From the NCBI GenBank assembly GCA_021030905.1, contig JAGFMI010000015.1, positions 744,001-808,000 of the forward strand: DNA of 64,000 nt, given 5' to 3'. The notes below the pieces were generated by a model. It had not been told where the DNA came from, did no database searches, and saw only the letters and a program-made list of their open reading frames with translations. A program made the translations under genes and the position numbers. Each line of letters opens with the position of its first letter. The stretch's first letter is position 1. Positions 7,729 to 41,826 of the stretch are shown here, piece after piece. The DNA is from Pyrenula massariospora. Lineage: Eukaryota > Ascomycota > Eurotiomycetes > Pyrenulales > Pyrenulaceae.

Positions 7729-8799
7729 TCAAGGCTCCATGGCAACCACCCCCCTCGCCACCGCATCCCGAAACCCCTCCTGCACCCACCACGCCCACCC
7801 CCTAATCCCCCTCACCCACTCCATCCTCGCCGGCAGAATCACCCTCCCCCCCTTACAACCCAGCACCTGCCCCACCACCGCCCTCGCCACGCTCTCCGCG
7901 TCCAGCATGCGCCCCTCGCCGTGCTCGATCTTGGCCTTCCAGCCCGCCGTCAGCGGCGTGGCGACCCAGTGCGGATGTATGCACGAGGTCAGCACGCCGG
8001 GGCGGCGGTGTAGCGCGCGCAGCTCGGCGGTGAGGCCCTCGTGGAAGGCGAGCGCGGCGGCCTTGGTGCAGTTGTAGTCTACAATCGTCGGGATGGTGAG
8101 GTAGGAGGCCGTACTGGCGAGGGTGACTATGTGGCCTTTGTTGGCGGCGAGCATGGATGGGAGGAAGGCCTGGATGGTGTGGTAGTGGGCGAAGATGTTG
8201 ACGGCGAAAATTTTTTGGAGGAAAGGTTCGGGGGTGGTGAGGATGGGGTGGGAGGTGCCGATGCCGGCGTTGTTGATGAGGATGCTGGGGGCGCCGTGGG
8301 TGGTGGTTATCGCTGTTGCGGTTTCTTTGATAGAGGCGGAGGAGGTGATGTCGCAGTGGTAGAAGTGCACGCGGTAGTCGGATTTGAGGGGCGCGGGGGG
8401 TTCTTGGATGTCGAGAATGCAGACGGTGAGGCCGCGCTCGGTGAGCTGGCGGGCGGTGCAGGCGCCGATGCCGCTGGAGCCGCCGGTGATGACAGCGATC
8501 TCGCGGGGGAAGTTCCAGTTCTTGCGCGTAGAGAGGCGCCAGTTGCGGGCGGCGTAGGCGTCGAGGAGGCGGCTGAGTGTGCGGAGTTGGCCGAGGAGGA
8601 AGAGGAGGCGGAGGGCTTTGAGGAGGGTGGGTAGTGTGATATGCGATTGAGCAGTGATCAAACGGCGGAGGCGAGCACGGAGGGAGAAGGGTCCGTAAGT
8701 GAGAGCTAGGAGAAGAGGCCCAGTGAGAAGGGGTTGGAGGGCAAGGCGTGTGGTGAGGTTGACAGTTCGGAGAATGACAGGGATGGGTTTGGTGGACAT
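7729..8799 (-). CDS. Short-chain dehydrogenase/reductase, membrane-anchored type
   Basis: A single uninterrupted frame of 356 residues from ATG 8799-8797. The NAD(P)-binding motif TGGSSGIG is at residues 105-112, NNAG at 176-179, and the catalytic Tyr and Lys (YNCTK) at 242 and 246. About 100 residues precede the Rossmann fold and contain hydrophobic helices (around LLTGPLLLALTYGPF and LLKALRLLFLLG), so it resembles the retinol dehydrogenase/DHRS-like SDRs that sit on ER or lipid droplets. The gene is very GC-rich at third codon positions compared with its neighbours, which is why long antisense frames accompany it. The substrate is unknown. It lies about 8 kb outside the cluster, and nothing ties it to the cluster. 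Confidence 0.9.
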   Translation of the reverse strand: MSTKPIPVILRTVNLTTRLALQPLLTGPLLLALTYGPFSLRARLRRLITAQSHITLPTLLKALRLLFLLGQLRTLSRLLDAYAARNWRLSTRKNWNFPREIAVITGGSSGIGACTARQLTERGLTVCILDIQEPPAPLKSDYRVHFYHCDITSSASIKETATAITTTHGAPSILINNAGIGTSHPILTTPEPFLQKIFAVNIFAHYHTIQAFLPSMLAANKGHIVTLASTASYLTIPTIVDYNCTKAAALAFHEGLTAELRALHRRPGVLTSCIHPHWVATPLTAGWKAKIEHGEGRMLDAESVARAVVGQVLGCKGGRVILPARMEWVRGIRGWAWWVQEGFRDAVARGVVAMEP

Positions 8800-9499
8800 G
8801 GTTACGATAGAGAGGCGATTCTACTATTGTCGCTTTGGAATTCTTGACCAAAAGGGTGATTGAGTAGCAGGCAAAAGTGACCTGAAGCAGCTCAAATTGC
8901 GAAAAAAAGCATCACTTGAAGCTGATAAATCGTAAATGAGAGGAGAACAAACTTTGGAATACATGAAAAATGGTCAGAAATCTTAGGAGAGTAACAACAG
9001 CATGGGGGGGCATTGAAACGAAAAACGATCAACTTCCACGGTTTCGTGGCGTGAGAGGGGTCTTGAGCCTCGGTTGCTGCCGCCGATCTTGACATTTGCT
9101 TTCGGCAGCATCTTCGGCGGAAGACGGAGTGAAAGGCTCTGATCGTCGGTTTCCTGGACACCCAATTTGAAGTGAGTAATCTGGTCGGAGCAATTGTTAG
9201 ATAAGATGGGTCGAGAAAATTAAGTTCAATTGGAATGATCTTGGGTGGGTGTGTCCATTTTCGGCAAAGCGTTATAAACTCTATGCTGAGGGCGGCGCCG
9301 TGCAAAGCATTCCCTTGCAACACATGATTCTAATACCGAGACTCGAGATTCAATATGGGCTGTTTAAGTGAAAGCAAGACACGCTCACTAGCCAAGGACA
9401 AATCGCTCGACTCGTAACGCGCAGGCTAGCAATTTCTTGAGACACCAGCGTTCCTGGTCGCGATTCGTGGCGGTCACCTGATGGCATTGGCTGCGAAGT
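8800..9499. other. Intergenic, promoter of SDR gene
   Basis: Upstream region of the minus-strand SDR. A 143-codon minus-strand frame at 8892-9323 has atypical composition and no family signature; I do not annotate it. Confidence 0.4.
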
Positions 9500-10044: not shown

Positions 10045-10972
10045 TGCTGACGGCGTGTTACCGGGGCGGTCACAGCCGAAAGGTGGAGGTTCGATCGCAA
10101 AAGGGGCGGAAAGAATCTCTGAAAATAGTGTGAAAGATAAATTTTGCGATGAGGCTTAAACATTAGATGACAAAAAATATTATGCAGATGAAGCGAGTCA
10201 GCTTGTAAGGACTATGACGATATCTGGTGGGCTAAGATAGATACATTATTTAGGGCCGATATCCGCTAATCTTTTCATAAGCTCTCCGTTCGATAGTCAT
10301 TGAATTATTGGCTGCCGCGCTTCTGATTTTAGCTGTACAGAAAATAAGGGCATTCTAACGGCATTTCGGAGATTCCAGAGCCCCGCTTTCAAGATCAACC
10401 TAAGTATCCAGCAATAAAGCGGGACATGGGCCATCTCCAAACCAAGAGAATTCTGCACCAATTAATGTCACCGGCTAGGGGAGAGAAAGCAGGTTCTGGG
10501 GGCGGAGCTCCAGGCGTCGGACGTAAGCACTCCCTTCTCGGTAATGGGGCTGTTTCAGAAACCTGAGATGGAGGGTTACACGATTAGGCCTGGCGCCCAA
10601 AGGCGGCAGCCTGACATAGTTTGAGATTTAAATGCGCAGTTCTTCAATCGACTGCACAAGCAGAATTACTTGATTTCTCAATTGATTACTCCTGCGCAAT
10701 TTGATTGTTTTCGACGAACCACAGAGACAAACTTAGCCATTAATTGTTCCGCAATTGCCTTGTCTTTGGTGCGAGGCACGTTTTGCCAGTGAATCTCTAT
10801 TTTAACACATTAGACTTACAAACTTTCGAACTTCGTTATCTCCCACGACGGATCTTGATTTCGAAGCAGGAGCGCAGAGATGAGAAAGAATATGATCGGC
10901 AGGATTATTAGAACTGGCTTGCTCAGTCGTTTTTGCCATGGTGAACATCTACCTGCAGCCTGAGCTTTGAGA
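10045..10972. other. Intergenic, upstream of HET gene
   Basis: AT-rich sequence with no supported coding region. It may hold further decayed sequence continuing from the remnant on its left and the promoter of the HET gene on its right. Confidence 0.35.
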
Positions 10973-12700
10973 ATGCGTCTAGTTAACACGTCTTCCTTAT
11001 CCCTTGAGGAATTCCATTCCAAGGTCCCCGATTATGCGATCTTGTCGCACACTTGGGGAGATGGGGAAGTTACGCTACAAGAGTTTCAAAGCGGGAATTG
11101 CGGTGGCAAGTCTGGCTATGAGAAAATCCGAAGATTTTGCCAGCACGTACTGGCTCAAGGTTTATCCTATGCCTGGATCGATACATGCTGTATCGACAAG
11201 ACAAGCAGTGCCGAGTTGTCTGAAGCAATTAATTCAATGTTCGCTTGGTATCATAATGCCAAAATATGTTGGGCATATCTTTGCGACGTGTATGAGTCCA
11301 AGGTATCTACAGATCAGTCCGTATCTCTAGATGACCTTCTTCGTCAAAGTCGTTGGTTCACAAGAGGCTGGACCTTACAAGAGCTTCTTTCACCTGATGA
11401 AGTTATTTTCTACGATAAAGAATGGCGAAAGATTGGCACCAAAACGACATTAAGGTCGTTACTACATCAGATTACAGGTATTCGAGATTTTACGACTTAT
11501 CACCAAGCACCCATCGCTCAAAAGTTTTCGTGGGCCGCAAAGCGAGAAACAACCAGAGTTGAAGACGCTGCGTATTCTTTATTTGGTATATTCGGCGTGA
11601 ATATGCCGCTTCTATACGGTGAAGGCTCAAGAGCGTTTATACGATTGCAAAAAGAAATCTTAAACGAGTCTGACGATGAAACTATTTTTGCTTGGGGTCC
11701 TAGTGAAGCCAGTGAAGAAAATACCATAGCAGGGTTGCTGGCCACATCACCACGCCAATTCATGAATTGTGCCGACATCGAACGCGACATCTTTGACGAA
11801 GCAAGACCGGTCTGGAGCATGACGAATCATGGCTTTCAATTTTCAGCCCATACTTGTCCTACCATAGATTTCCGAACTTCTGATGCAAGCTTACGGGGCC
11901 TGATAATGGTTCCTTTGAATTGCTGTCGAGCTGCTGATAGACGCTTGTTAACAATATTTTGTCAGCGAGTAGGAAATTCTAACCTACCAGCGCTCCGAGG
12001 GTACCGAAGAGTGGTTATGGCTCCACGCTATTACCTGAACCGAGAACTTCTATCTGACTTCAAAGAAAGAACGACGATGGTTTTCTCGCCCAATTCACTC
12101 ACCTTACGTGAGCCTACCGAATCAGTCAAATTGTACGATGGTTCCTTTTTTATCTGCTTTGACACTGCATCGCTTGAGTTTCATGGATTTAAAGTGTTGC
12201 GCCAAGCTTTTTGTTTACCAAAAAATCGTATTTGGTACAATCGGAGTGATCAAAAGTGGACACTTTCAGGACAGACTTTCAAAGACTGCCGTCTGAGTAT
12301 TGGCGGGTATTTAAACGACACCAGGCTCCACATGGACCAGGTTGTGGGATTTCATGAGTGTGAGGCTAATCTAGACGTTGGTCCGAACTCTACAACCGTT
12401 TACAGGGCGCGGCTACAAGATTCTGAGAGACATCCGCTCAATATTCACGTCGTCAGCTTGAAGGGCTCAGGATTCGGTGTTAAAGTGGATAGGGAACCCT
12501 ATCGTCATCACCATATTCTCGACAGTTTCAAGGTTCGGTCTACCTACCGGAACTCGAATGAGATCGGCGTGATCGCGACTGTTACTAAAATTTCCAGCCA
12601 TCTCTATGGTTCGCTCTTCAAAATTTTGGTAACTGCTTCTAAACACATACCACCTGATTCTAATTTCAGCACAATGAGCGAAACAAATATGTCTGCATGA
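10973..12700 (+). CDS. HET-domain protein (heterokaryon incompatibility family)
   Basis: An intronless 575-residue frame. The start is the ATG at 10973, giving the classic MRLVNTSSLSLEEF opening. The HET blocks are all present: YAILSHTWGDGEVTLQEF near residue 20, YAWIDTCCIDKTSSAELSEA, then WFTRGWTLQELLSP, then VEDAAYSLFGIFGVNMPLLYGEG cut across its middle by no gap. HET domains are TIR-related and trigger cell death after non-self recognition in many ascomycetes; this layout (N-terminal HET, long variable C-terminal part) is the common 'HET plus DUF' form. The frame looks intact. Together with the NACHT gene 10 kb away it marks this flank as rich in non-self recognition genes. Confidence 0.93.
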   Translation: MRLVNTSSLSLEEFHSKVPDYAILSHTWGDGEVTLQEFQSGNCGGKSGYEKIRRFCQHVLAQGLSYAWIDTCCIDKTSSAELSEAINSMFAWYHNAKICWAYLCDVYESKVSTDQSVSLDDLLRQSRWFTRGWTLQELLSPDEVIFYDKEWRKIGTKTTLRSLLHQITGIRDFTTYHQAPIAQKFSWAAKRETTRVEDAAYSLFGIFGVNMPLLYGEGSRAFIRLQKEILNESDDETIFAWGPSEASEENTIAGLLATSPRQFMNCADIERDIFDEARPVWSMTNHGFQFSAHTCPTIDFRTSDASLRGLIMVPLNCCRAADRRLLTIFCQRVGNSNLPALRGYRRVVMAPRYYLNRELLSDFKERTTMVFSPNSLTLREPTESVKLYDGSFFICFDTASLEFHGFKVLRQAFCLPKNRIWYNRSDQKWTLSGQTFKDCRLSIGGYLNDTRLHMDQVVGFHECEANLDVGPNSTTVYRARLQDSERHPLNIHVVSLKGSGFGVKVDREPYRHHHILDSFKVRSTYRNSNEIGVIATVTKISSHLYGSLFKILVTASKHIPPDSNFSTMSETNMSA

Positions 12701-14823
12701 TGCCTCTTTGAGCATCTAGTCCTAATATGTTGCATAAAGATGGTACTTACGACAGAACATCATTGACGCAAAATGTTAAATCAAGCGTCATTAGTGAGGC
12801 CGCGAACAGAATGTAGAAGGCGAGAAGAATGATTATTTTTACAGCGGAGACAGGAGACGGACATGACGACAGGGTCAACGATCCTATAATCGACAATCAA
12901 AAGCAATGAGATTAGCCATTCACCTTCAAAAGAGCTTTTCGCATGGATTACCATGCCGCACCTGAACGTTGTTAGATGGCCGCCGTCTCAGCCGGAAGTA
13001 AGCCCTTCCATAATCGACAAGACTATGTGGGAGATGATTTCTGCAGCATTTTGATCGATTGAGCTCGATCTAAACTCATAAATGGGTATTAGGGCATGGT
13101 CTAAAAACTTCGGCTCTACCACGTGAAGTTCAGGATCATTGACAGGAATTCGAGCCAAGTATTTTGCTAGCTAAAGCTGGGAAAACTCGGCCGCAACTAT
13201 TGCCTTTGACTTTCGACTGACATAGGCTAAATATTACTGCGAGAGAAATGCAGGTGGGCTACGAAACCTATTGATCTTTACAAAGGCTACGGTCTATTTG
13301 GATGTCACCCGCTTGAGTTTCTCAGGATAGACCATCAGTCGAATTTGTGGTTTCTGTTGGAGGGATGAAAACTCTAGCCTCCATGAGATTAATTTCGACA
13401 TTCTATCTACGCTGATCTTGAGAATGACTGGAAGGAAAATCTTCGAAAGATCGTTGTGTGGAGGCAAGATCTAGAACGGGCCTAAATGCTTCGATTGCAT
13501 GTGTTCCAGGATCAGGATTAGCAGATATCCTTGATGAAGAAAGTTATGCTTGACGCATACAAAGGAAAGATGAAGCACTGGCATTTTGGAATTCCGTTGA
13601 TTGAATGTGAACCGAATACGAGTATGCTGAGGGCTGCGAACTTCTAGCATTTAGATATCCCAAATGCTTGGTATATATCAATCTTTTGTACTTCGGAAGT
13701 CGTTAGCTCCTGGTTGGGAATGAAGTCGATTTCTGCCTATTGAAATAGGCTCTAATGATGGGTAAGAGCGCTGAACATTGGAAAATTAAATATATCCCAT
13801 CGTAGATTCACAAAATGAAAGCTCGCTCAAATAGCTTCCGGACGTCTGTCCCATGATATGGACCTAACAGCCCTGACTCTTATGGCGCGTTTACAGAACA
13901 TCGGCTCAAGGACAAATTTGCGTTTGTCATTCGACAGAGTCGGTTTGTAAATCGAATGAATCACTGGCTTATGATTGAGACTAATAGCTTGATAATTCAA
14001 TAAGGCTTGCCATGAAAAAGGAAGGCGGGTTCTTCCCGTGTCAATGGTAACATTCTGTCATCCTGATCTCATTGACAGTTCAGCGACGAGTAGCACGCGA
14101 GTCACATCCGCAATATCTCCTGCTGACCATTGAGATGAAAGGCCCGGATATTCGTTGCCAGCAACCTTAAAAAGGGATGTTGCTCGGAAGATCGTCAGAT
14201 CTTGTTCTCTGCCAAGCCTCGCACTCCCACTGACATCATCTTTTTCCCTTTCCGCCCCCACACCAAACGCAGCGCAAAGCCAGCGGGTCACCGATCTTCA
14301 AAGCCTCGTGCTCAGCCTTGCTACAGACCTCGTTTTGTCCCCAAGGCAGCCCTCCATCAGAGACATGCCATTGGCCGCCGCATGTTGGATGACGGATCAC
14401 CCATCGAAGAATAATGCGCTAGAAGCCTTCTAGAATGCGGACGCGGATTGAGGCGCTCATCTAGAGATGCATGATGATACGTATCGGGGAACGGGGCTGA
14501 CTCCTAACAGCGGGAAAAGGTGACGTGCCTCGAGCAGGAAATACGAGATTTACGTATAGCTAGTTTTAAGGCTAGGTATAAGAAGGTGAGATGTCCTCGG
14601 AGGATCAAAGTTTTGTTCAACTTTTGAACAGAGCCTGCCCAGACACAGGGAAAATCATCTACACACAGAGGAGAAACCTTGAGCCATTCCGCTTATCTTT
14701 ACCACCCATAGCTATTGCAACGCTTCCAATCAACGCATGATTGTTCTTCTCACCTGATTCTCAGCAACGACTGAAAAGCTCAGCTGCCATTTGTCTCGCT
14801 TTCCTCTCTCCCAGCGCCTCACG
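12701..14823. other. Intergenic with decayed coding-like segments
   Basis: No intact gene. On the + strand 13350-13960 contains fragments that read like old coding sequence in changing frames (for example ENDWKENLRKIVVWRQDLE near 13410 and YKGKMKHWHFGIPLIECE near 13560), with many interruptions. They suggest a decayed coiled-coil or Lys/Trp-rich gene of unknown family. From 14000 to 14820 I see only the likely promoter of the small Gly/His-rich gene. Confidence 0.3.
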
Positions 14824-15105
14824 ATGTGTTTCTCAGACTCTGATAGAGAGACCTCCTACCCCCCGCGGCCTTCAAATCAGGCCTACTATTACGGACAACC
14901 GCAAAGATATGGACACCGAAAGAGAAAGGGATACTACTCTGGCGGCGGAGGCGGATATTATGCAGGTGGTGATGGGTCAGGAGGAGGAGGACACCATGGA
15001 GGATTTTTCGGCGGTGGGCACCATGGCGGAGGTGGACACCATGGCGGGGGCGGCTGTGGTGGTGGTGGCGGAGGTGGGGGATGCGGAGGGGGAGGTGGAG
15101 GCTAG
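14824..15105 (+). CDS. Small Gly/His-rich protein, 93 aa
   Basis: Starts MCFSDSDRETSYPPRPSN, followed by a Tyr/Arg/Lys patch (GYYSGGGG) and a C-terminal ~55 residues made almost only of Gly and His with two Cys. Short proteins beginning MCF with an adjoining PRP motif and a low-complexity tail are common in ascomycetes and have no defined function. The ATG at 14824 is chosen over an upstream in-frame ATG at 14791 because it restores this typical start. No signal peptide or transmembrane segment is visible. The repeated GGHH pattern might bind metal ions, which is only a guess. Confidence 0.6.
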   Translation: MCFSDSDRETSYPPRPSNQAYYYGQPQRYGHRKRKGYYSGGGGGYYAGGDGSGGGGHHGGFFGGGHHGGGGHHGGGGCGGGGGGGGCGGGGGG

Positions 15106-16010: not shown

Positions 16011-18483
16011 TTATTGCCAATTGGCCAGAACGGTATCTTCCTTGCTGACTTGTGCATATTTTAGACTGTCCCGCCAGAGTTGACCCGATTTCCTCTTATC
16101 CTTTGCTTCTGGCCCAGCATCTGTCACCTCAGAGCCGTTTAGGTATATGCCATTTGGGTGGTGACCCAGCGAATTGGTATCGAAAGCTGCGCGGATGATG
16201 TCGCGGGCTGATTTTGACGTGGTCCTGAAGGGTCCATTTGGCCAGAGAAGCATAGCCAGGCTCGCTACGATACGAAGCAGGATCTTTCCGATAAAGATCC
16301 GCCGGTACCATCCATCCCGCCGCGTAAGACCGCTAGGCATAGCTCCCGGATCAAGTCCGAGAACGGAGATACTAGATAACTCTGGGTCGTTCGCCAGGCG
16401 TGTGGAGAGCTCTCGGCTACGTTGACAGTCAGAATCTTCGGCTTCCTGGACAAGGTGGTAGACTAAATCAGACTCACAACATCATCACTTCGCAGAGCTT
16501 TGCGGCACCGTATCGTCTGGTGCCGGCACTGAAATCTCTAGGATGCTCTTTTTCCGAGCTCCATATACCTTTCGCAAGACTCTTGGTATCGTCAGGGTCA
16601 TTGAAAATTTGCGAATACTTGCCCGTATACATGTTCGTAAAGTCGCCGATCTTGTTAGCAGGGTGGGCTGTGCTATCAATTGCTGCATTTAGCGCTTTAT
16701 GCCTCGCAATGCAGCATACCCAAGGGGTCTTACTCATGAGTCCAACTTCCAAGCACGATGATTCGCCCGTGCTTCTTATCCATACTCTGCAACAGTAATA
16801 GAACAAAGAGGAAGTGCGACAAATAGTTCACTTGAAACGACATGTCGAAACCATCACCGGTAAAGGTCTGTACTGTCTGCTCTTGATACCCGGCATTCAA
16901 GATCAACGTTCGGATGGGTGCAAGAGACTCATTTGCGACACGTTTGTTGATAGATTTAGCAGCATTACGGACGCTGGCTAGACTAGCCAAGTCAACATAC
17001 GCAATTTCATGACTATGCTGCTTTGACTTCGCTTTACAAAGCGCCTTGTTGATATTTGCTGTATTTTCGGGGTTGCGTGCAGTGTAGAGTCCATGATAAT
17101 GCTTAGCAAGGTTAGGCCTCTGGAGTATACTGTGGATAACAGAGCTTCCCAGACCTCCGTTGCAGCCAGTGACTAGTATTGAGCCACTGACTGCGCCTAT
17201 CCGATAGAGTTGCTCGTTATACCACCTCTGTTGTAAGCCATGTCAGCGCCAGATTCACAGACGATGTCTCGTACCTACCATCTCAAAGCCTGCGCCAATG
17301 ATTTTAATCCCCGTATATTTCGACCAGCTTGGAACTTTGACTTTCTTAGCGTGTGCGATAGCTTGAAGCTCGGGTACATCTAAGTTTAGGAGAACTTCGC
17401 GAGGGAGCTTTGGTTGTAGCACTGCCGGTCGGGCTAAGCCAACCATATCGCAGCTCCCCTCCATTAAAGCCTTTTCCATACCATGGCGTGTCCGGAATCC
17501 ACCGGTAACTATTAGAGGGAGCTGGGGGAATTTTGATCTGACAGTCGCTGCAAAGTCGAGGAAGAACGCTTCACGTGCATTCGGTCCCGCGTGACCAACA
17601 TTGAAGGTTGGATCTGCAAGACTACCTCCACTGATCTCCACAAAATCGATTCTAGAGTCTGCAATAGCCTGGAGCTGCTCAATACAATCATTCATATCAG
17701 ACTGATGGTCAACCGAATTGAATTTGATCCCCACGCAAAAGTCAGGGGGCGCAACAGTCCGAATAGCATGAATGATCTCGAGCAAAATCTTAACCCTCCC
17801 CAGGGCAGAGCCACCGTATCTATCAGTGCGTTTGTTCGAGCTAGCTGAAAGAAATTGAGTCAACAGATAGCCATGAGCGGCATGAATCTCGACTCCTGAA
17901 AACCCTGCTTTAGCAGATAGTTGTGCGGCATAGGCAAACCTCTGAACAACATCCTCAATCTCCTCCAGCGTCATCTCTCTTGGCTTCCGGAACACAATTG
18001 ATTTGGCGATCCAGGGTATCATGCCTTTACCAAAATCTGCTGATATTGCGCTTGGAGCAATGCCCTTTGCAAAAGGGGTCTGGCGACCTGGGTGGTTGAT
18101 TTGAACAATTGCTTTCGTTCCATTCTGGGTGCATGCGCTTGCCCAGGCTGTCCATGTTGGTAATATCTCTTTCTCTGGCATGGATTTGTCAATGGCAATA
18201 TCCCCTGGACCACCGAGAAAAGCTGCGTCTACTTGCACATTTCCTATGGTACGTGAGTTCGGTTGAAAATGAGTATTTAGACAGTAATACCTGTTAGTAC
18301 TAGTCCCCAGCCACCTCTTGCCCATTCCCTGTAAACATTAAGGCAGACCTCACTTCCTGGAAGGTGGTCTTTAGGGGCAAAATTCTCAGCCATCGCCGCC
18401 TTGACGAGGCGGTTCGGTAAAGTAAGACCGCATTGAAGCGTAATCGGGTGAGCAGTCCTCAACTTGGTCCCTGAGTTTGACAT
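16011..18483 (-). CDS. Old yellow enzyme fused to short-chain dehydrogenase (OYE-SDR), cluster tailoring enzyme
   Basis: Five exons on the minus strand, 18483-18291, 18243-17279, 17227-16734, 16672-16478 and 16416-16011, give 2253 nt and 750 residues with every phase agreeing. The N-terminal ~400 residues are an FMN-dependent NADH:flavin oxidoreductase: [10 protein letters not shown] near the start, [15 protein letters not shown] with the active His pair, TDRYGGS, and the FMN-phosphate region [14 protein letters not shown] plus GLARP. The third exon continues OYE ([11 protein letters not shown]) and passes without any Met into an [14 protein letters not shown] in LILNAGY, Ser in VLGSWTHD, YGAAK, then [14 protein letters not shown]. 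The frame would otherwise stop at 17255 just past the OYE body, and the SDR has no start codon of its own, so fusion is the best model. Inferred role: reduction or isomerisation of the released product. An OYE-like epimerase is known in ilicicolin H biosynthesis (IccE). Confidence 0.85.
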
Positions 18484-19130
18484 CTCAACAACTTACCGGC
18501 AGACATGCGCTGGTGACTTGGAAATTATTGATAGCAAAACTACTCCCGAGAAGACTCATGTTCCACTTCCCACAAAGAATTGCTCAGAAATGGCACCGCA
18601 TAGTAGCGCATGGAGCGCAGCAGTCCATCCACTATTCTCAACCCAGTGATTTCCGTCCAAAATGTTGAGCCAATGCCACTGCAAACGACTCATACCCCCT
18701 GAAGGCCGTGGTCAGCTGAAGAGCGGAGAGCCGGCTTACATTGCACAACAGCGGTGTATTACCCGCCGGGCAGCAATCTCTGATGCCGAACTCGTACTTC
18801 ATTGCCGATCTCGGGCCGGAACATCGTCGTGTTGCCGGTTTTTAAAGATACGCGGAGGAGAAATTGATTTGCAGCTCCATGAATTTGATGTACACTCCGT
18901 TAGGAGTATACCACATTCCGTCATATGCCGAGACTCCGCAATAATCCGTGATCCTGCAGTCGAACTCCGAAGTAAGGCAGTCCCCGGCTTGGAGTACCCA
19001 AACAATCCAAATCAGCTTGGCTCACTATGCCCCTCTAAATGGCAATTTTTTTCTCTTCTAAGAGCGAAGGAAATTTGCAGTGGAAGTAGAATCCCTTCTT
19101 CGCATCGTCGATTTTCACGCTGCCCCAGCC
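18484..19130. promoter_or_regulatory. Divergent promoter, OYE-SDR / P450 (a)
   Basis: 647 bp shared by two cluster genes pointing away from each other. It holds several CTCCG or CGGAG half sites (near 18851, 18896, 18934 and 18965) of the kind bound by Zn2Cys6 regulators, and ATTCCGTC at 18915-18922. These are short words, so only their clustering is suggestive. Confidence 0.5.
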
Positions 19131-21580: not shown

Positions 21581-23209
21581 TCATTTGTAGAAAGCAATTT
21601 TCACTCCATGCAAACTAGAAGGCCCAATTCGCATAACGGCTGTGTAGGGATTGGGATCGCGGGCCTCGATCCGGCGGTAAATCTTGGCGAGGCGAACTAG
21701 CATGTATGCACATTCCGTCTGCGACATCATCTGCGCTGGACAGCGGCGTGGCCCACCTCCGTACGGAAGAAATTGCCAGGTCCCTCGAAGATCCTTAAAT
21801 CGTTCCGGTCTATACACGTCCGCGTCCGGACCCCAATAGTCTTTGTCGCGATACATGACCGTCTTTGTCACGGAGACGATGTCGCCTTTGCACACCGCGA
21901 GAGGCGATTTGCCGTCTGGCCCCCCTCCCAGAGGTAGTGTGGTGTCATGAAGGCAAGCCCGGACCTGGGTGACATTATTGGGAATTAGACGGTGGGCTAT
22001 AATGAATAGTTAGCGGGCAAACGGTTTTTGCTGGCCTAGCCAAAGGCGGAAGGACGACTTGCTCTCGTTTATGACATAATTGAGGTAAATCATATTTCGC
22101 AGCAGCTCGAAAGTTAGGGGTTTGTCTCCAACAGAAGCGACTTCTTCACGGAGTTTCTGCCAGACCTCGGGATTGCGCGCTAGATACCAGATGCAGTTGC
22201 TGATTAACATGGATGTGGTATCGTTGTTGGGGACAATTATCAGACTAAGCTGTGATCTCAATAAGTCCTCATTTCTACAATTATTGGCCATGGACCATAG
22301 CAGGTCTGTGCGCTCAGGCTCGACGGTTCCACCTTTTTTAATGCATGTCTCGCGCTCTTCAATTTCCTTCAATGTGGATCGGATATATGGGTTGAGCATG
22401 GCATGGACCTCGTCCACGGCCTTGAACCAGTAATCCCATTCAATCCACCGAAGGACCCTATACATCTGTGCCCGCCGACGGGCACCATTGAGCACGGTCA
22501 TCATGAGCTGAATGATCTTAGTCTTGCTCTCGTCCCTCAATGAATCCATAGACTTTCCAAACATAAACTCAGAAGTAATATCAAGAAACTGCTTCTCAGT
22601 CAGCATTCATCTCAACTTGCCCCTGAACTCACTGACCCAGCGCTGAACCAAGGGCTGTATGTCAAACGTGACACCATCCCCAGGGATTAGGTTCAGAAAA
22701 CGGTCAGCAAATGGTTTTATGCGGTCAGTGCTGTGATACACATCGCGTTCAAAGAAGGGCTTGATGAGGAACCGACTGAAGGCCCAATCGTCGCCATCAG
22801 TTGTACTGACCCCCTTGTCAGCAAAAGGCATTAGTCCCGGGGGCCGACGGCGGATTGGCTCGATGCCGAAGTCCTTGAAATTGGTTGCGTAGACAGTCTT
22901 TAGGATCTCGGGTTCAATCGAGTAGATCCATCTCATGCCGAGATAGTTAATTGAGAAAGTCTTGGTAGACATTCTGGCATGGAGATCCCTTAGCCAATCA
23001 AGGTAACGGTTCGACTGCAGGGCCCTGAATTGACTTATTACAAGATCAAGTCCAAAAAAGGGGTCCCAGTGCGGGTACTGAACTTCAGGCAGGCACCCAT
23101 TGGTAGTGCGGATGACATCTTGCTTTCCACGACCAACAAGCTTCCCCAGTAGGAGGGCAATAACGCCTGTAGATAGAACGAGCACCGGTAGATTGCTTGA
23201 AACGGTCAT
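21581..23209 (-). CDS. Cytochrome P450 (b), CYP52-like
   Basis: Minus-strand exons 23209-22637, 22588-22063 and 21996-21581 give 504 residues. The N-terminal helix ([16 protein letters not shown]) is followed by [18 protein letters not shown], a signature seen in CYP52-like alkane and fatty-acid hydroxylases. The I-helix PNNDTTS, ExxR (formed across the second intron as ETHR), PERF and heme loop [12 protein letters not shown] are present; the usual Gly after the Cys-Pro is Ala. Intron 2 is GC-AG with donor GCAAGT, the only choice that restores ExxR and the frame. Like the fungal CYP52 relatives, it may hydroxylate the hydrophobic polyketide chain; the actual substrate is unknown. Confidence 0.9.
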
Positions 23210-23425
23210 TTCGATGATAGCCTGATGATATAGTATAGTCTCTCAAGTACAACTAATTTGATCTGTTTCGATATAAGTAAACCGTTAATACTGAAGGTAA
23301 TATCCGAAAAACTTGCACGCGTAGAATGGCTGTCGCTTTGTTCAAGTCCACGGCCTGATCCTCAGAATCTTCGACCGATATAACTGGCATGTGCTACATT
23401 GTGCATCCACCATTCTGAAGTCAAT

Positions 23426-23450
23426 CTCCGTATCGGAGAGAGAGGCTCCG
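23426..23450. promoter_or_regulatory. Candidate Zn2Cys6 binding array
   Basis: CTCCG (23426-23430), TAT, CGGAG (23434-23438), seven bases, CTCCG (23446-23450). This gives two overlapping dyads, one everted with a 3-bp gap and one inverted equal to CGG-N11-CCG, the forms commonly bound by Zn2Cys6 dimers. Lies upstream of P450 (b), whose start is 217 bp away. Binding is inferred. Confidence 0.4.
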
Positions 23451-23606
23451 TTGACGGTAAACTATACCAAATGACGCGATCCAGCGTGGTTGCGGCATTT
23501 TCTGAATCTGGAATTCCCCGGCAGGTTTTCCGATCATTGCCGAGGGGTTTCACGAAGCACCAAGCCTCGGCAGCTAGCGCATTTAAGAAGCATGAGAAGC
23601 TGCAGA

Positions 23607-23644
23607 GGCTCACCGCAGGGGCTCACCGCAGAGGCTCACCGCAG
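23607..23644. repeat. Three tandem copies of a 13-bp unit
   Basis: GGCTCACCGCAG occurs three times at 13-bp spacing (23607, 23620, 23633) with one varying base between copies. A short promoter-region tandem repeat; no function can be read from it. Confidence 0.8.
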
Positions 23645-24442
23645 ACCTTGGAGAAATACGAGGTACGCTGGCTGAATCTCTGATCGTAATTTTACCCGAA
23701 GCAGTGGCGTAATTTACCCAGCTGAGTATGAGACGGGGTAGTCACAAGAGTTATCAACAATAATGACTATTTACCTATGGAGAGCTAGCGCGGAAAACGG
23801 AGCCTTTGGGAGCCCTTGCGAAGCCTTGTCAGTCTCCATTACAATGCTTCCATGATCTACTTACTGTGGAATATAGTGCATTACCCTGTAATACCTTTCA
23901 TTATACCGGCCTGTTTCTTCGGGTGAGGTTGTGGGTCGTTGGAGCGGCTGCAGATGGCACGACAGAATCTTCTGCAACTTGACGGACAACCTTGTAGGTC
24001 CACAAAGACAATTACTGGTTACACTATGCAGGCAGTCATCTTTCAGGGATCAAAAGCAATTCATTGCAGCTGAAGATAAAAACAGGAAATTAAGATACCG
24101 TGGCCAGAATCTCAGTTCTCGCATCCTGAGAGACATAATCATGAAAGCACTTTGGAACTTGACTTATCCCGGAATATTTTGACATTTTCTCGCATGGAAA
24201 AAATTGGCTCTCAGCTGTCAACTGTAACGTCTCTTGTCTACGCAATAGAGGCGTTATACCAAAACTTAAGGCGTTCCCCATAAAGCCTTTTGCTGAGTTT
24301 TGACATGGTCTTTTCCTAAACCGATTTTTCATTGGCTCGTCTGCCCACGAAAGCTTAAGAACTCCTTGATTCTCAAAGTCCCACATCGGAAAAAGGTTTT
24401 CTTAAACTGCATAACCTCAAGGCAGGGTTCTCTATCCTGGTG

Positions 24443-26798
24443 ATGAATCCAGGCCCAGCACACAAGCGCAGGCGGCCTGCAGTAGCGTGAGTAATCTACA
24501 TCTCGAGCTATCTGGATATAGAACTTAATTTATGCAATCTCTAGATGCACACAATGCCGTCGGCGCAAGATCAAATGTGACCGTGGTTCTCCATGTGGGC
24601 CCTGCAGTAAGTCTGTCCCGAGCCTGCGGTGCGCGTACAACAACAGTGGGTTAGAACTCGAAGTTGACCGACGCGTACATCATGTGTCTCTGTCACAACC
24701 ACCGGAGCTCCAGCCAATATTAGGTTTCGATTCTTTCGAAGAGAATTTCGAGGATCTAGACTTTCTTTCTTATGATGTATTCCCGGCGTATAATGAGGCT
24801 GGTACTAGCTTTGTCGATATGGAATGTTTTGGCCCAGGTCACCCTCCTTCTAAGCCTGCATCTACAGGCTCTCCGAGCTCATGGATCAATGGTGAATCAT
24901 CTAAAGGAACAAGTACAAGTCCATACTCTACCAAAACCAGCAGCCAGACCAATTTCGCACAGCCGCAGCCAAGCCCGCCAACCGCAAGTTCCAGCTCAGG
25001 GGTGGACCTGCGGTCGGATCTTCAAGTATATCTTGAGTCTAACGAGAATCACCATAAAATTAATTGGCTAAATTCATTTTCACGGTGCAAAAGACTACAG
25101 CCCCTCATCCGTGGTATTTCTAGCCACTCGCTCGAGGATGGTGAGCCGCTACAGCGCAAGCATGATGCACTGCGGCCTCTCATGGAGAGATTTGCGAGAT
25201 TGAATCGAAGTAACCAGCAGGAGCGCACTTGCAAAGCCTTAACACTGAGCTGGGCAGTAAGTTCTGAAGTGGCTCCATGCCCTGCTCGAATGCTTTTGCC
25301 ATCACGCTCCATCTGCGATATGCTCCTGCATGCATACATCAAAACGTTTCAATCAGTTCTTTCCATACTACACGTACCATCTTTCTTAGAAAGCTATGAG
25401 CATTTCTGGGAATCGATAGATCCGGATGAGGCATTCACATATAAGCTATTGATTATCCTTGCGCTAGGATCTTGTGTATGCTCTGGTACTCTTTCTCCTA
25501 ACGACCTCGGGCAAGTGCAGTTGTCGTCACTACGACAGCAGGCGGGTGACTGGATTGTTCGAGCTAGACAATGGCTTGGGAGTAAAGTGAGAGCGGGATC
25601 ACCTTCAGACTTGGACTATGCCCAGCTTGCGTGTCTTCTTGCTCTGGCGCGGCACACTGTGCGTCATAGTGGAGTAATAGCCAGCATTTCATGGCGTCCA
25701 GAGGATGATCTGACGCGGATCGGAATCCAGATGAGTCTTCATCGGGAGCCACGCATTCGTTTTCGGACCGTGTCATTCATGGAAGCAGAGATTCGTCGAC
25801 GGTTGTGGGCAATTATGCTTGAGCTCTCACTGCAGCTGTGTCTTGATGAAGGACTACCACCTCCTTTGGCCCCCGAGAGCTATGACTGCGAGGCACCTTC
25901 AAACGCTACGGACGAAAACCTTGAAATAGCCATAGATTCACCCGACTGTGAATCATCAAGTATTCTCAGAATCCTGGCACAAACACAGTGCCTTCGTCTC
26001 AAAATCCTACATCTTGTCAACTCACCTGGTGCTTCAAAGGCTTATGAAGATAGCTATCGACTTGCTAATGAACTGGACACTGCATGCCGCGTGAATCTAG
26101 ATGCACTTCGGAGTATGACAAAATTCCAGCCAACAAACTTCCAAGTCAAGCTCCTAGAGATGTTCACGCGGCCATTTGTCCTAGCTCTCCACGAGCCCTT
26201 CGCAGACCAGGCTTCGAACATGCCGGCATATTATTTCTCACGCAGAAAGCGTATGGAAGTATCAACAACGCTGTTAACACATCCATCGACTCTAGGATTT
26301 ACGGTCAGCAATATCTCCATACCTAGCGTCACATTATCGGAGACAAGGAGCCCGATAGCTACTACTTCGGCCATGTCAGCCACGGCCCTTAAGCGGGACT
26401 CTGTTACAGCACTCTGCATCCAAGCAGATGGTCACTTTGCCCTCGTCCAGCGGCAGGCAACGGCGGCACTATGCATAGATCTCATCAGTGAGCTCGAAGA
26501 GAATGCATTTCCCATTTTAGACGGCGCATCGTTGAAGCAGGTTCGTAATGTGCTACGTGCAGCTGTGGGCACTTTTGAGCGACGGTTTAAAGTAGCGGCC
26601 GACCCTGATGCAGCCCGCGAGTTTCTGCTGTTTGCGTGTTCCAACGCGTACATTGACGCAATGCAGCGTGGGTGCCAGTCGGAAGAGATTGACAAAGCGA
26701 TTGCAGAGTCGGCTCGGGTGGCTTTCAATCTCTGTTGCGATGTCATGGAACGGAAGCGGTTTTCAAGAGAGACTACCGCGGAAGTTACGAGCCTGTGA
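24443..26798 (+). CDS. Zn2Cys6 transcription factor 1 of the cluster
   Basis: Two exons, 24443-24486 and 24545-26798, 765 residues. The short first exon encodes MNPGPAHKRRRPAV; after a GTGAGT intron the binuclear cluster follows at once (CTQCRRRKIKCDRGSPCGPC, then a further Cys eight residues on: CX2CX6CX5CX2CX8C). An acidic Phe/Asp/Glu stretch (around FEENFEDLDFLSYD) may be an activation region. The middle holds a fungal-specific transcription factor domain (SILHVPSFLESYEHFW, then LHREPRIRFRTVSFMEAEIRRRLW). No leucine zipper is obvious. It shares its upstream region with P450 (b). Intron position and domain order match those of the second regulator, so the two are paralogous in type. A pathway-specific activator role is the natural inference. 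Confidence 0.9.
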
Positions 26799-27694: not shown

Positions 27695-28834
27695 TCACGC
27701 ACAGAATTCTTGGGCAATAGGATAAACTAGCTTTCTCCCCTTAATCTGCCCTTTACGAACCTCCTCCATTCCCTCCGTCACTGCCGCCAACCCTCCACTC
27801 CGCTCCTCCTTCGGATGTGCCAAGATAAAACCATCATCTAGGAATCGCTGGGCAAGTACATACCAAGCTTCGGCGCAATCACGATCATCCAGCCGTTCGT
27901 CCAAATTGTATGGATACTCCCAGGCGATAGGTTGTCCAAATTGCGTGTACGCGCACAGCCAATCAGGTATCACACTACGGCGATCGTGTTTGCGGAGTGG
28001 AAAGGGATCTAGTGCGACGTATCTTCCACCCTGTGATCCTAGCGCTCCATAACAGATGACCATGGAAGTAGAATCGGTGACACAATCCAACGCCAGCGCA
28101 AGCGAGTTGGCTGTATATTCACGAATCTCGGCGCCGCAAGTCGGTGAGTTGTAGTCGAATGCCGCTGCTGCGCCGAGCTCTTTGGCACGTGAACCTGCAG
28201 TAGGCGAGCATGTAGTGATTGGAGTGAAGCCAATTAGCTTCAGGATTTGGATTGCCATGGCACCGGTTGATGTGCCACCACCGTACACCAGCACGAAGCG
28301 CGAGGATTCAGGGGCGGAGCAACTTGACTTTGAGCTCGAATTTGCTGGCATTGGCAACTGTAGGTAGTGGAATAGTGATAGCCCAACCGTGGCCAAACCG
28401 AGTGGTAGCGTCGCGGCCGTTGCAAGATCCACATCCACAGGTACATGCCAGACTAAGCGAGCAGGAACAGCGACATACTCTGCAAAGGCACCGTTGTCGT
28501 GACGAAGCGGATTGTTTCCGAAGACAAAGCCTAGGACGCGGTCGCCTATCTTGACAGGCTTCATCTTGTTGATAGATCGAAAATTATCAGCTTCTACGTC
28601 GGCTCCCAATGCTACAACAACGCCTGAGAAATCGGTTCCACAGGTCGCCCCCAGGGACGGTGACATCTCCGCGGATTTGCCATCGACTGGGTTTATTGAG
28701 ACATAGGCAACGCGCACCAAAACCTCTGAGGACTCGAGCGTCGTCAGTGACGCATCAGTACATAGAGCGACGGCGTTAGAGCCGGCGATCTTGAGAGCTG
28801 TATGTGTGGGTGGGAGGGCAGTGGAGACTGTCAT
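27695..28834 (-). CDS. Trans-acting enoyl reductase for the PKS-NRPS
   Basis: A single-exon 379-residue protein of the medium-chain dehydrogenase/zinc-binding superfamily without zinc ligands. It reads SINPVDGKSAEMSPSLGATCG, then GDRVLGFVFGNNP, GAFAEYVAVPA, and the NADPH-binding LVYGGGTSTGAMAIQ. This is the pattern of stand-alone fungal ERs such as LovC, ApdC and TenC, which dock onto highly reducing PKSs that lack a working ER and reduce chosen enoyl intermediates with NADPH. It starts 654 bp from the PKS-NRPS start, divergently, so the two are probably co-regulated. The ER reaction decides where the chain is saturated and so is part of product programming. Confidence 0.95.
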   Translation of the reverse strand: MTVSTALPPTHTALKIAGSNAVALCTDASLTTLESSEVLVRVAYVSINPVDGKSAEMSPSLGATCGTDFSGVVVALGADVEADNFRSINKMKPVKIGDRVLGFVFGNNPLRHDNGAFAEYVAVPARLVWHVPVDVDLATAATLPLGLATVGLSLFHYLQLPMPANSSSKSSCSAPESSRFVLVYGGGTSTGAMAIQILKLIGFTPITTCSPTAGSRAKELGAAAAFDYNSPTCGAEIREYTANSLALALDCVTDSTSMVICYGALGSQGGRYVALDPFPLRKHDRRSVIPDWLCAYTQFGQPIAWEYPYNLDERLDDRDCAEAWYVLAQRFLDDGFILAHPKEERSGGLAAVTEGMEEVRKGQIKGRKLVYPIAQEFCA

Positions 28835-29488
28835 CGTAAAATATACACTTCGATGAGCTGTCTAAGGCGAACATTAGTAGGGCCATTCTTTAAACATTGG
28901 GCAGATTGGCCACTACATTTTATGAAGGTCGACACGAATGGTGAGACTTCCGAGGGTTTTCGCTTTGGCCCCCAACCCAAGCTCAACATTCTCGGCCTCT
29001 CACGGAAAATGCTGAATGGCGCGATTCTGAATCTTCTCCTTGAATCACCAAGACGCCGCAAGACCCTCTAAAACCCTCGGAATATTCGATCTTACGTCAG
29101 TGTGTCTCCGAGTTCACGTACCCTGGGAAAACATTCCGTCGGCTGACTGAAGATAATATGTAGAATTCGCCGCGAATTGGTGGTGGCTTGCTCCAGAACG
29201 GACAACGGAATATTAATCTGAAAGCAGACAACGAGCTTTGACACATCCGTCGAGCTGAACGATGAGGCAATTCGACATGGCGCGTGCAAACGAACAGACA
29301 CGAGCATGTTCTCACGTGCTACAGTGTCCAGAACCTCGACACTCGGCGTTGCGAGGTCTGCACTTCACGTGGTTGTTAGACCAAAGTAGTGCTTGTATAG
29401 AAACGTCAATCATCAGTAATTCGCTGGTGGTGTCAAAGTGAGTTATAATTTTGCTACTAATCTAGGACAAAATCATTGTTTCCGCACT
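28835..29488. promoter_or_regulatory. Divergent promoter, enoyl reductase / PKS-NRPS
   Basis: 654 bp. Visible elements: a 13-bp perfect inverted repeat (TTCCGAGGGTTTT at 28948-28960 and its complement at 29070-29082); TTACGTCA, a bZIP/CRE-type site, at 29092-29099; CTCCG at 29106-29110; TTCCGTCGG at 29134-29142; two CACGTG E-boxes at 29313-29318 and 29366-29371. Which of them work is not known. Confidence 0.5.
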
Positions 29489-32400
29489 ATGTCTCAGCAA
29501 AAGCAGTATCCTCAGGAGCCTATAGCCATTGTTAGTTCGGCATGCAGGTTCCCAGGCGGATCTAGCTCGCCGTCTAAGTTATGGGATTTGCTTCGTGAGC
29601 CTCGTGATGTCTTAAAAGAATTCGATCCAGACCGGCTCAACTTAGAACGATTCTATAATCCGGATGGTGAGGCACATGGATCCACAAACGTCACCAACAA
29701 AACATACCTCCTCGAAGAGGACAGCCGACTCTTCGATGCCTCCTTCTTCGGCATCAGCCCCGTCGAGGCGGCTGGTATGGATCCTCAGCAGCGTATTCTG
29801 CTGGAGACAGTCTACGAAGCCTTCGAGATTGCGGGCTTGACCCTTGAGCAACTCAAGGGCTCCTCAACATCGGTCCATGTTGGTGTTATGACATATGACT
29901 GGAACAACATCCAACTTCGAGACCCGGAAACAGTTTCAAAGTATGTTGCGACGGGAACTGCCAACAGCATCATCTCGAACCGCATTTCGTACGTTTTCGA
30001 TCTCAAAGGCCCTTCCGAAACCATCGATACGGCCTGTTCCAGCTCGCTGGTTGCCCTGCACCATGCGGTTCGAGGTCTACTAAGTGGTGACTGCGAGACA
30101 GCTATCGTTGGTGGCGTTAATCTCATCTTTGACTCCATCCTCTACATCACTGAGTCTAAACTTCACATGCTATCGCCTGATGCGAGGTCTCGCATGTGGG
30201 ATAAGTCTGCAAATGGCTACGCCCGAGGCGAGGGCGTAGCCGCTCTGGTCCTCAAGTCCCTAAGCAAGGCGTTAAGAGACGGTGATCACATCGAGGGCCT
30301 AGTTCGGAGCACGGGTATCAACTCGGATGGTGCCAGCCAGGGTATTACGATGCCTTTTGCCCCTGCACAGGCGGCGCTCATTCGCGAGACGTATCACCGT
30401 GCTGGTCTCGACCCAATCAAAGACCGGCCACAATATTTTGAGTGCCAGTATGTGTTCCAAAATAATCTTCAAGATCCGCCTTTCCCAAAAGAAAAAAACT
30501 GACTCTCGTTTCCTCTCAGCGGCACCGGCACCCCTGCAGGTGATCCCGTGGAGGCTCGCGCTATCAGCGAGTCTTTCGTTAAGGGTAGCTACGATATATC
30601 AGCAAAGAATCCAATGTACGTAGGATCGATCAAGACTGTTCTTGGACATCTAGAGGGCTGCGCCGGCCTCGCTGGTGTTATGAAGGTACTCCTCGCCATT
30701 AAACATCGCACCATTCCCCCAAATCTGTTATTTAACGAATTAAACCCGGCTATTGCTCGCTACTACGGGCCACTTCAAATTGCCACCACAGCACTTCCAT
30801 GGCCTCACTTACCCGCTGGCACCCCTGCCCGTGCTAGTGTCAACAGCTTCGGATTCGGAGGCACGAATGCTCATGCCATCATTGAGAGCTATGACAGTGA
30901 CAATGTTCAGGATACAGAACAAGCTAAGGGTGAGATCGAAAACACCAGTGGCGTAGTTGGACCTTTGGTTTTCTCGGCCGGATCTGGGGCATCATTATTG
31001 AAGACTGTCCGGGGCTACGTGGAACATCTGAATCAGCATCCAAAACTTGACCTCACGGACTTAAGCTGGCTACTTCTTACTAAACGATCTACGCATCGAA
31101 ATCGGGCATACTTCTCTGGCGAATCGCGGGATGTTTTATTAAAGAGCATGCAGAACTTCGTCAAAACCCATGATAAAGCTTCAGCTGCCGAGATTGGGTA
31201 CCAGCCTCAACTTGTCAACCCAAAGGAGATTCCTGGTATTCTTGGCGTCTTCACAGGTCAGGGCGCACAGTGGCCGAGGATGGGGCGACTATTGATACTC
31301 AAATCATCACTCTTCCGCAAGACAATAGAGGAATGCGAGATGGTCTTGGGAGCTCTGCCATCAACTGATGCTCCGCAATGGTCGCTGCTTCATGAGCTGA
31401 TGGCGGACGCCTCTCAGTCGAGGATATCGGAGGCAGCAATCTCACAGCCGGTGTGTACTGCTGTGCAGCTTGCTTTAATTGATCTGCTTACTACCGCTGG
31501 CATTAAATTTGATGCCGTTGCGGGACACTCTTCAGGGGAGATTGCAGCTACGTATGCGAGCGGCATTCTCACCCTAAAGGGAGCGATACAGATTGCATAT
31601 TACCGAGGCCTCTACGCTAAACTTGCCGCTGGTCCTCGTGGTCAAGGTGGAGGTATGCTAGCAGTCGGATTGTCGCTGAAAGATGCTACAAAGTTTTGTT
31701 GTCGCCCAGAGTTTGAAGGCCGTATTCAAGTAGCAGCCAGCAATGCTCCACAGAGTGCAACTCTTTCAGGAGATATCGACGCGATTCAAGAGGCGAAACA
31801 GCAGCTCGACAAGGACCACATTTTTGCACGCCAGCTCAAGGTGGATACGGCGTACCACTCGCACCACATGAAACCGTGTGCCGATCCATACCTTAAATCG
31901 TTGCTTGCTTGCAACATTGAAGTGCGAAAGCCACCGTCTGGTAGTTGCGTTTGGAACTCGAGTGTGCGCGGTGACACTTATCTTCTCAAGGGTGATTTGA
32001 GTTCCCTTAAAGGTCCATACTGGGTAGCAAACATGGTCCAAACTGTGCTCTTCTCTCGAGCCGTCGAGTCATCGATCTGGCACGGTGGTCCGTTTGATCT
32101 AGCCATTGAAGTTGGACCTCATCCCGCGCTCAAAGGTCCAACAGAACAGACCCTAAAAGCCGCTTACGGCTCATTTCCACCCTATGTGGGTACGCTGAAA
32201 CGGAATGAAAATGATGCCGAGGCTTTCACTGTAGCTGTTGGCGCCACCTGGGCACAGTTGGGCCCGTCTTCTGTCAGCATCGCGGGATATGAGAAGATAT
32301 TTCGTAAGTCGCAGCCTCCAGCTCGAAAAGTTATCAAAGACCTTCCTCAGTACTCCTGGGATCACGACAAGGTCTACTGGCGCGAGTCTCGCATCTCACG

Positions 32401-41400: not shown

Positions 41401-41826
41401 AGCGAGCACGCCCCCAACTCCGACGCGCTGAACGCGATCCTGCGCTTCTCGGCCACGATGCGCTGTGTCCCGCGCCACGACAACGTCCGGGGGTATCTCG
41501 ATTTTGGGGAGGCCGACACGGTCGTCGGCGAGGTGGCGGAAGCAGCCCTGCAGCTCGGGAGAGGGGTTGGTCACGATGAGCAGGCCGGTGCGGAGATCCG
41601 GTTCAGACACCACTCGGGGGGCGTCAAGGTGCCGATCAAGGAGCTGCGGGCGCACATGGAAAAGGTGTATGGCGTGCCCTTCGAAGAGGCCAGCTATCCG
41701 GATTGGATGAGTCGGGCCGAGGAGGCCGGGATCGATCCTCTGATCACGGCGTACTTGAGGGGGATCTTGGAGACTGGGACCACGATGGTATTCCCGTATC
41801 TTGGGGAGAGGGAAGACGGATCGTAG
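29489..41826 (+). CDS. PKS-NRPS hybrid synthetase (HR-PKS with C-A-T-R module)
   Basis: Three exons, 29489-30447, 30520-38761 and 38866-41826, give exactly 4054 codons (4053 aa). Intron 1 (72 bp) splits the KS His codon of HGTGTPAGD; intron 2 (104 bp, phase 0) joins C to A, so what look like two genes are one. KS: active Cys183 (DTACSSS), [16 protein letters not shown], Ser657. DH: His989 in [10 protein letters not shown], later LDVAFQ. cMe[12 protein letters not shown] near 1446. No recognisable ER motif. [10 protein letters not shown] near 2142, Tyr2283. ACP: GIDSL, Ser2460. After a disordered linker, C: HHIVADV, His2761 and Asp2765. [12 protein letters not shown] near 3239, [21 protein letters not shown], Ser3639. 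[10 protein letters not shown] near 3729, YTASK with Tyr3874 and Lys3878. Makes a methylated polyketide, amidates it to an amino acid and releases it. ATG 29489 is chosen because [16 protein letters not shown] is the usual short KS lead. Confidence 0.97.

Follow-up and report, generated by a model that had tools for sequence, protein, structure and literature searches.

A gene on the minus strand at positions 16011-18483 of the window (the whole stretch of 64,000 nucleotides of Pyrenula massariospora DNA that was analyzed) raises the question of whether an old yellow enzyme (OYE) and a short-chain dehydrogenase (SDR), which normally occur apart, can be joined in a single polypeptide, and of what such a protein would do next to a PKS-NRPS gene cluster. 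A sequence-only reading of the window had described an uninterrupted frame distributed over five exons, and an independent five-exon model gave the same product, 2253 nt including the stop codon, which encodes 750 amino acids with no internal stops. The four introns are 47, 51, 61 and 61 nt long and all have GT-AG borders; the splice sites were picked partly by homology, and the gene model rests on genomic sequence. Exon 1 (18291-18483) encodes the OYE N-terminus, residues 1-64, and exon 2 (17279-18243) continues the TIM barrel to residue 386 and carries His185, His188 and Tyr190. Exon 3 (16734-17227) begins with the final stretch of the OYE tail (residues 387-398), passes directly into the SDR at residue 399 (TGCNGGLG), and thus contains the join. 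The SDR portion then continues through exon 4 (16478-16672), where the YGAAK motif with Tyr605 and Lys609 is located, and ends with the C-terminal part in exon 5 (16011-16416). Comparison with Pfam identified Oxidored_FMN (PF00724) at residues 13-348 with 164.9 bits against a cut-off of 27 (E 3.8e-48), and adh_short (PF00106) at residues 403-548 with 52 bits against a cut-off of 26.6 (E 8.2e-14). The GC3 values of the two halves are similar, 0.462 and 0.526. The motifs of both families named in the sequence-only reading were found again in the translation, HAAHGY at 185 and YGAAK at 605 together with TGGFRTRHG and TGCNGGLG, and its view that the SDR half has no start codon of its own also held, as the only methionines after residue 380 are at 386, 515, 535, 565, 614, 615, 642 and 671. 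At the level of genomic sequence the fusion is confirmed as a real and well-supported observation, and the larger claim, one OYE-SDR polypeptide beside a PKS-NRPS gene with both catalytic sets present, is likewise supported.

The join was located by comparison with proteins in which the two halves are separate. An OYE paralogue in the same genome (L005, a single 483-aa open frame on contig C29) aligns to residues 11-398 of the fusion with 37% identity, and an SDR paralogue (L009, on contig C11) aligns from residue 399, also with 37% identity, its presumed start methionine lying at 399. In a second SDR paralogue (L013, on contig C1), there is a methionine about 3 residues before that point. This puts the join, at residues 398/399, within exon 3 and 12 residues past intron 2; intron 2 is not the domain border. 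Residues 388-397 correspond to the OYE C-terminal tail in the alignment with stand-alone relatives, and the same tail is present in bacterial stand-alone OYEs, for example EVTWYTRQLRRIG (L040) and EVAWYGRQLRRMG (L041). The alignment included 63 relatives: L005, two loci from a first bacterial phylum (L033 and L034, out of three fetched from its 26 matching genomes), and 60 of 64 bacterial places, the four with the lowest scores being left out. Position 392 is Gln in 58 of the 63 relatives, position 393 is Leu, Ile or Met in 62, position 395 is Arg in 46, and position 397 is Gly, Ser or Ala in all of them. Other tail sites are less constant (Trp388 in 27/63 and Tyr389 in 19/63), and the complete pattern W[YF]xxQ[LIM]xR[LIMV] is found in 15/63. 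Past column 398, the stand-alone relatives continue for another 28-63 residues (median 35), and in the predicted fusion the SDR takes the place of these last residues. According to the gene model, the OYE thus passes into a complete SDR with no linker between them, and does so within a single exon and a single frame. A predicted structure of L005 had a mean pLDDT of 72.5; since residues 394-417 were below 50, the model is uninformative about the tail.

Stand-alone OYEs with this tail (L005 and bacterial loci such as L040, L041 and L033) share approximately 36-47% identity with the OYE half in the matched stretch (40% for L005 and 42% for L033) and have the same tail and catalytic residues as the fusion, but each carries 28-63 further residues after the position of the join and no SDR. 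His185, His188, Gln112 and Lys238 of the fusion are each the same in 63/63 relatives and Tyr190 is the same in 62/63; Arg336 is also retained, as it is in 28/63. The OYE half therefore has the substrate-binding His pair (His185, His188) and the proton-donor Tyr190 expected in the family. The SDR half has the Rossmann TGxxxGxG motif (TGCNGGLG) and the catalytic YxxxK motif (YGAAK, 605-609). Its counterparts in the same genome (L009 and the L011/L013 gene) are 41-46% identical over matched stretches and have related YG..K and DPG(A/T)M motifs, but they are separate genes, each with its own presumed start codon. An arginine after the second SDR strand is associated with a preference for NADPH, and the Arg of the TARN sequence in the SDR half suggests NADPH as the cofactor.

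It is plausible that the protein reduces both C=C and C=O. We consider it somewhat better than an even chance that the gene encodes one bifunctional tailoring reductase of 750 residues belonging to the adjacent PKS-NRPS cluster, in which the OYE carries out the C=C step and the SDR the C=O step. In this mechanism, the FMN of the OYE half would take a hydride from NAD(P)H, and the OYE half would reduce (or isomerize) an alpha,beta-unsaturated carbonyl of a cluster intermediate. The ketone released in this way would next be reduced by the SDR half, and one protein would thus perform two tailoring reductions in turn.

The alternative that fares best is that the fusion is real but the OYE half acts as a redox-neutral epimerase or isomerase, only the SDR half being a reductase, and the neighboring ketone reduction would fix the stereocenter. 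We regard this as a tentative and rather unlikely explanation. It is kept alive by the unusual residue at position 32, a flavin-proximal site that presumably corresponds to Thr37 of OYE1. This residue is Ala in the fusion and in none of the 63 relatives, all of which have a polar amino acid there (Glu in 33, Thr in 17, Ser in 9, Asn in 2, and Gln and His in 1 each). The Thr or Cys typical of OYEs at this site is thus missing, a feature that is itself inconstant among the 63 relatives. The best PDB match of the OYE half is 7fev (E 6.2e-60), which we take to be ArOYE6. His196, His199 and Tyr201 of ArOYE6, a class V enzyme, match His185, His188 and Tyr190 of the fusion, whereas its Thr40 and Arg42 stand against Ala32 and Asn34, Thr40 of 7fev being the residue aligned to Ala32. 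In one source, where ArOYE6 is called class III, Thr40 is predicted to hydrogen-bond FMN and is given as the equivalent of Cys26 of YqjM (PMC4002455). A precedent for epimerization is the TIM-like enzyme IccE/TriliE of ilicicolin H biosynthesis, which is also found in a PKS-NRPS cluster; compared by description only, it is not described with a fused SDR in the available parts of the reports (PMC8705728, PMC6631495, PMC11895301). According to the same excerpts, ilicicolin H was made without IliE when the Neonectria genes were expressed in A. nidulans, and some was made without the epimerase in A. oryzae (PMC8705728, PMC6631495, PMC11895301), which indicates that the need for the epimerase varies. 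On the other side, retention of the His pair, Tyr190, Lys238 and Gln112 speaks against this alternative. A more specific version, in which an OYE deprived of its polar flavin-tuning residue isomerizes or epimerizes the substrate and hands a labile product to the SDR, where ketone reduction traps the stereocenter, is an improbable one.

The assignment of the two reductions to the PKS-NRPS pathway depends on the position of the gene. The fusion (ATG at 18483) and a first cytochrome P450 gene (19131-20837, plus strand, intron-interrupted, ATG at 19131) are divergent and separated by an intergenic region of 647 bp (18484-19130). These are followed by a second cytochrome P450 gene with several open frames (21581-23209, minus strand), an open frame for a Zn2Cys6 transcription factor (24522-26798, plus strand), a gene for a trans-acting enoyl reductase-like protein with ADH_N and ADH_zinc_N domains (27695-28834, minus strand), and the PKS-NRPS gene (29489-41826, plus strand). 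The start codons of both P450 genes, the enoyl reductase-like gene and the PKS-NRPS gene were assigned in this analysis. The PKS-NRPS has the organization KS-AT-DH-MT-KR-ACP-C-A-T plus a terminal NAD_binding_4 domain, and a domain search of this protein revealed no apparent enoyl-reductase domain in the PKS. The terminal domain could be either of the R or of the Dieckmann type; according to PMC7421883, no residues have been found that are diagnostic of the Dieckmann domain. Farther along are a second Zn2Cys6 transcription factor gene composed of two open frames (43126-45510, minus strand) and part of an MFS transporter gene (46715-47674, plus strand). The PKS-NRPS region lies between the two Zn2Cys6 regulators, at 24522-26798 and 43126-45510, which are encoded on opposite strands. 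By analogy, the gene set resembles those of tetramate/pyridone-type pathways such as osd.

The fusion could also be genuine yet serve a different pathway, its place near the PKS-NRPS cluster being accidental. It is the last oxidoreductase on that side of the cluster, followed by genes of a different sort, such as an open frame with a HET (heterokaryon incompatibility) domain at 10964-12700, and a search for a shared promoter motif found no 8-mer present in each of the three main intergenic regions. However, the fusion is divergent from the very P450 gene that separates it from the remainder of the cluster, and the order that follows, a second P450, the trans-enoyl reductase and the PKS-NRPS, supports a cluster enzyme; we judge a chance neighborhood to be distinctly unlikely. 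The intergenic regions 18484-19130, 23210-24400 and 28832-29480 contain 4 CGGN7CGG direct repeats where 1.25 would be expected, but this pattern was picked from 39 and so is weak and was not counted.

Several other features of the window were recorded. Upstream of the second P450 gene there is a 13-bp tandem repeat, GCAGAGGCTCACC, with 3.4 copies at 23602-23645. The HET-domain open frame is near the edge of the cluster, and between it and the fusion gene lies an open frame (14758-15105) rich in glycine, with runs of GGG, YYAGG and HHGG. A stand-alone SDR (adh_short, 124 bits) is encoded at 7729-8820, roughly 7 kb farther out than the fusion gene, and a flavocytochrome b2-like sequence with an FMN_dh domain and a cytochrome b5 match is found at 59392-60789.

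If the fusion is taken as a bifunctional reductase of this cluster, its possible functional precedent is OsdN of the oxysporidinone pathway. There, the TenA-like P450 OsdM is reported to oxidize the phenol ring, after which two successive reductions are carried out by OsdN, a protein labeled flavin oxidoreductase/NADH oxidase (PMC10967133). Both proteins are also named in PMC10381429. OsdN is like the fusion in its OYE-type name, in its location in a PKS-NRPS cluster with a trans-enoyl reductase and P450s, and, if the proposed mechanism holds, in the two consecutive reductions; compared by description only, it differs in being listed apart from two SDRs, OsdB and OsdH (PMC10967133). A precedent for the ketone-reducing partner is TopH of the trichodin/asperpyridone pathway, an SDR ketone reductase of a PKS-NRPS cluster that, compared by description only, appears without an OYE part in the excerpts available (PMC10609478). 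By comparison with OsdM and OsdN, the preferred yet least certain guess about the substrate is an amino acid-derived ring that would be dearomatized by either of the P450s. That this ring is derived from tyrosine is a guess; the fusion, which lies beside two P450s, could take a dearomatized ring of this kind from dienone to alcohol.

All of this presupposes that the two halves are made together. Intron 2 (17228-17278, 51 nt, with GT-AG borders and a CTGAC branch-like site) lies within the OYE tail and must be removed, because the unspliced OYE frame meets a stop at 17255. An OYE-only product that would lose the conserved tail is therefore possible from intron 2 retention. Furthermore, 98 of 2000 dinucleotide shuffles of the region 17278-17189 also permitted a valid in-frame join, so the splice join by itself is weak evidence. 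Both facts lend something to the idea that the cell contains no fusion protein, either because intron retention leads to a short OYE while the SDR is not made or because other splicing splits the halves. Nonetheless, a scan of the real sequence gave three in-frame joins, all of which yield a fusion; the two additional ones would sacrifice most of what exon 3 contributes to the OYE tail. No methionine precedes residue 515 in the SDR half, which means that an intact SDR cannot start alone from this frame; a product begun at 515 would lose the start of the Rossmann fold. Finally, exon 3 carries the OYE tail and the SDR in a single frame. That an uninterrupted exon shows homology to an OYE before the join and to an SDR after it is a stronger argument than the one from splicing, which was insufficient alone, and it is the main reason why a chance or artefactual join was rejected. 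The absence of a fusion protein is, on this balance, very unlikely. Most improbable of all is that the OYE half is catalytically dead, a structural or docking part of what would be in effect a ketoreductase: position 32 lacks a polar residue and the last 28-63 residues of the relatives are gone, but the remaining catalytic and flavin-contact positions are conserved and the frame is intact across 398 codons.

To place the arrangement among other proteins, the genome of the organism (37.8 Mb in 33 contigs) and bacterial genomes were searched. The introns and the neighboring genes are in keeping with a filamentous fungus. Oxidored_FMN matches were found in at least six places of the genome. The five besides the fusion are on contigs C29 and C18 and the two closest SDR paralogues are on C11 and C1, so the fusion is the only fused pair seen there. 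In a first bacterial phylum, 26 of 198 genomes matched at E <= 1e-30 (30 matches, up to the five best candidates per genome), and in a second one 56 of 398 matched at E <= 1e-45 (64 matches, up to the two best candidates per genome). Among these 94 best-candidate matches from 82 of 596 bacterial genomes, there was no fused relative and none passed residue 406 of the query; because scoring was confined to the best candidates of each genome, a weaker fused copy may have been missed. A scan of viral contigs found no relative of the fusion, and a scan of genome contigs with patterns from the OYE half returned 14 loci, 13 of the OYE type and one SDR, none of which matched both halves. A 761-aa open frame (L036, in genome G524) was considered as a possible fusion and rejected, as the locus has no SDR match and the surplus length is upstream of the OYE. 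The literature searched, consisting of titles, the openings of abstracts and text passages, contained no description of a natural OYE-SDR fusion. In comparison with its own genome and with the bacterial genomes, the predicted OYE-SDR protein joins two known families in a new way.

In a tree of OYE sequences, the OYE half pairs with L005 (support 0.884), and the sister group consists of 63 tips, bacterial relatives plus another OYE from the same genome (L006), with a low support of 0.445. The distances from the fusion are 1.66 to L005 and 3.02 to L006. The latter looks ArOYE6-like by its KAAMTER motif; the tree was built without ArOYE6 itself, although this is the best PDB match. An SDR-type open frame was found in the stretch of about 7 kb covered at each locus (5.5 kb at one of them) at 9 of 60 loci of the second phylum. 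At two of the 60 it was directly downstream on the same strand, overlapping in L053 and 55 bp away in L074, and an origin from an operon is therefore possible but not favored; bacterial OYE-SDR operons as forerunners of the fusion came out weak. At L053, which is the same place as L041, the SDR domain match begins 3 bp ahead of where the OYE stop codon ends, and the two genes lie in the order seen in the fusion. The fusion probably goes back to a deletion that took out the last 30-60 or so codons of an OYE gene together with the spacer behind it and the beginning of the SDR gene that followed.

Ene-reductases and ketoreductases are often paired by hand by chemists to set neighboring stereocenters. 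If both halves of the P. massariospora protein are active, it would be a naturally fused ene-reductase and ketoreductase, and it would point to the last reductive steps in the formation of the PKS-NRPS product. It would also offer a direct test of the channeling of unstable intermediates by domain fusion. Should the improbable version with trapping of an isomerized or epimerized product be the true one, the protein would be a natural one-protein device for dynamic stereocontrol in a PKS-NRPS pathway.
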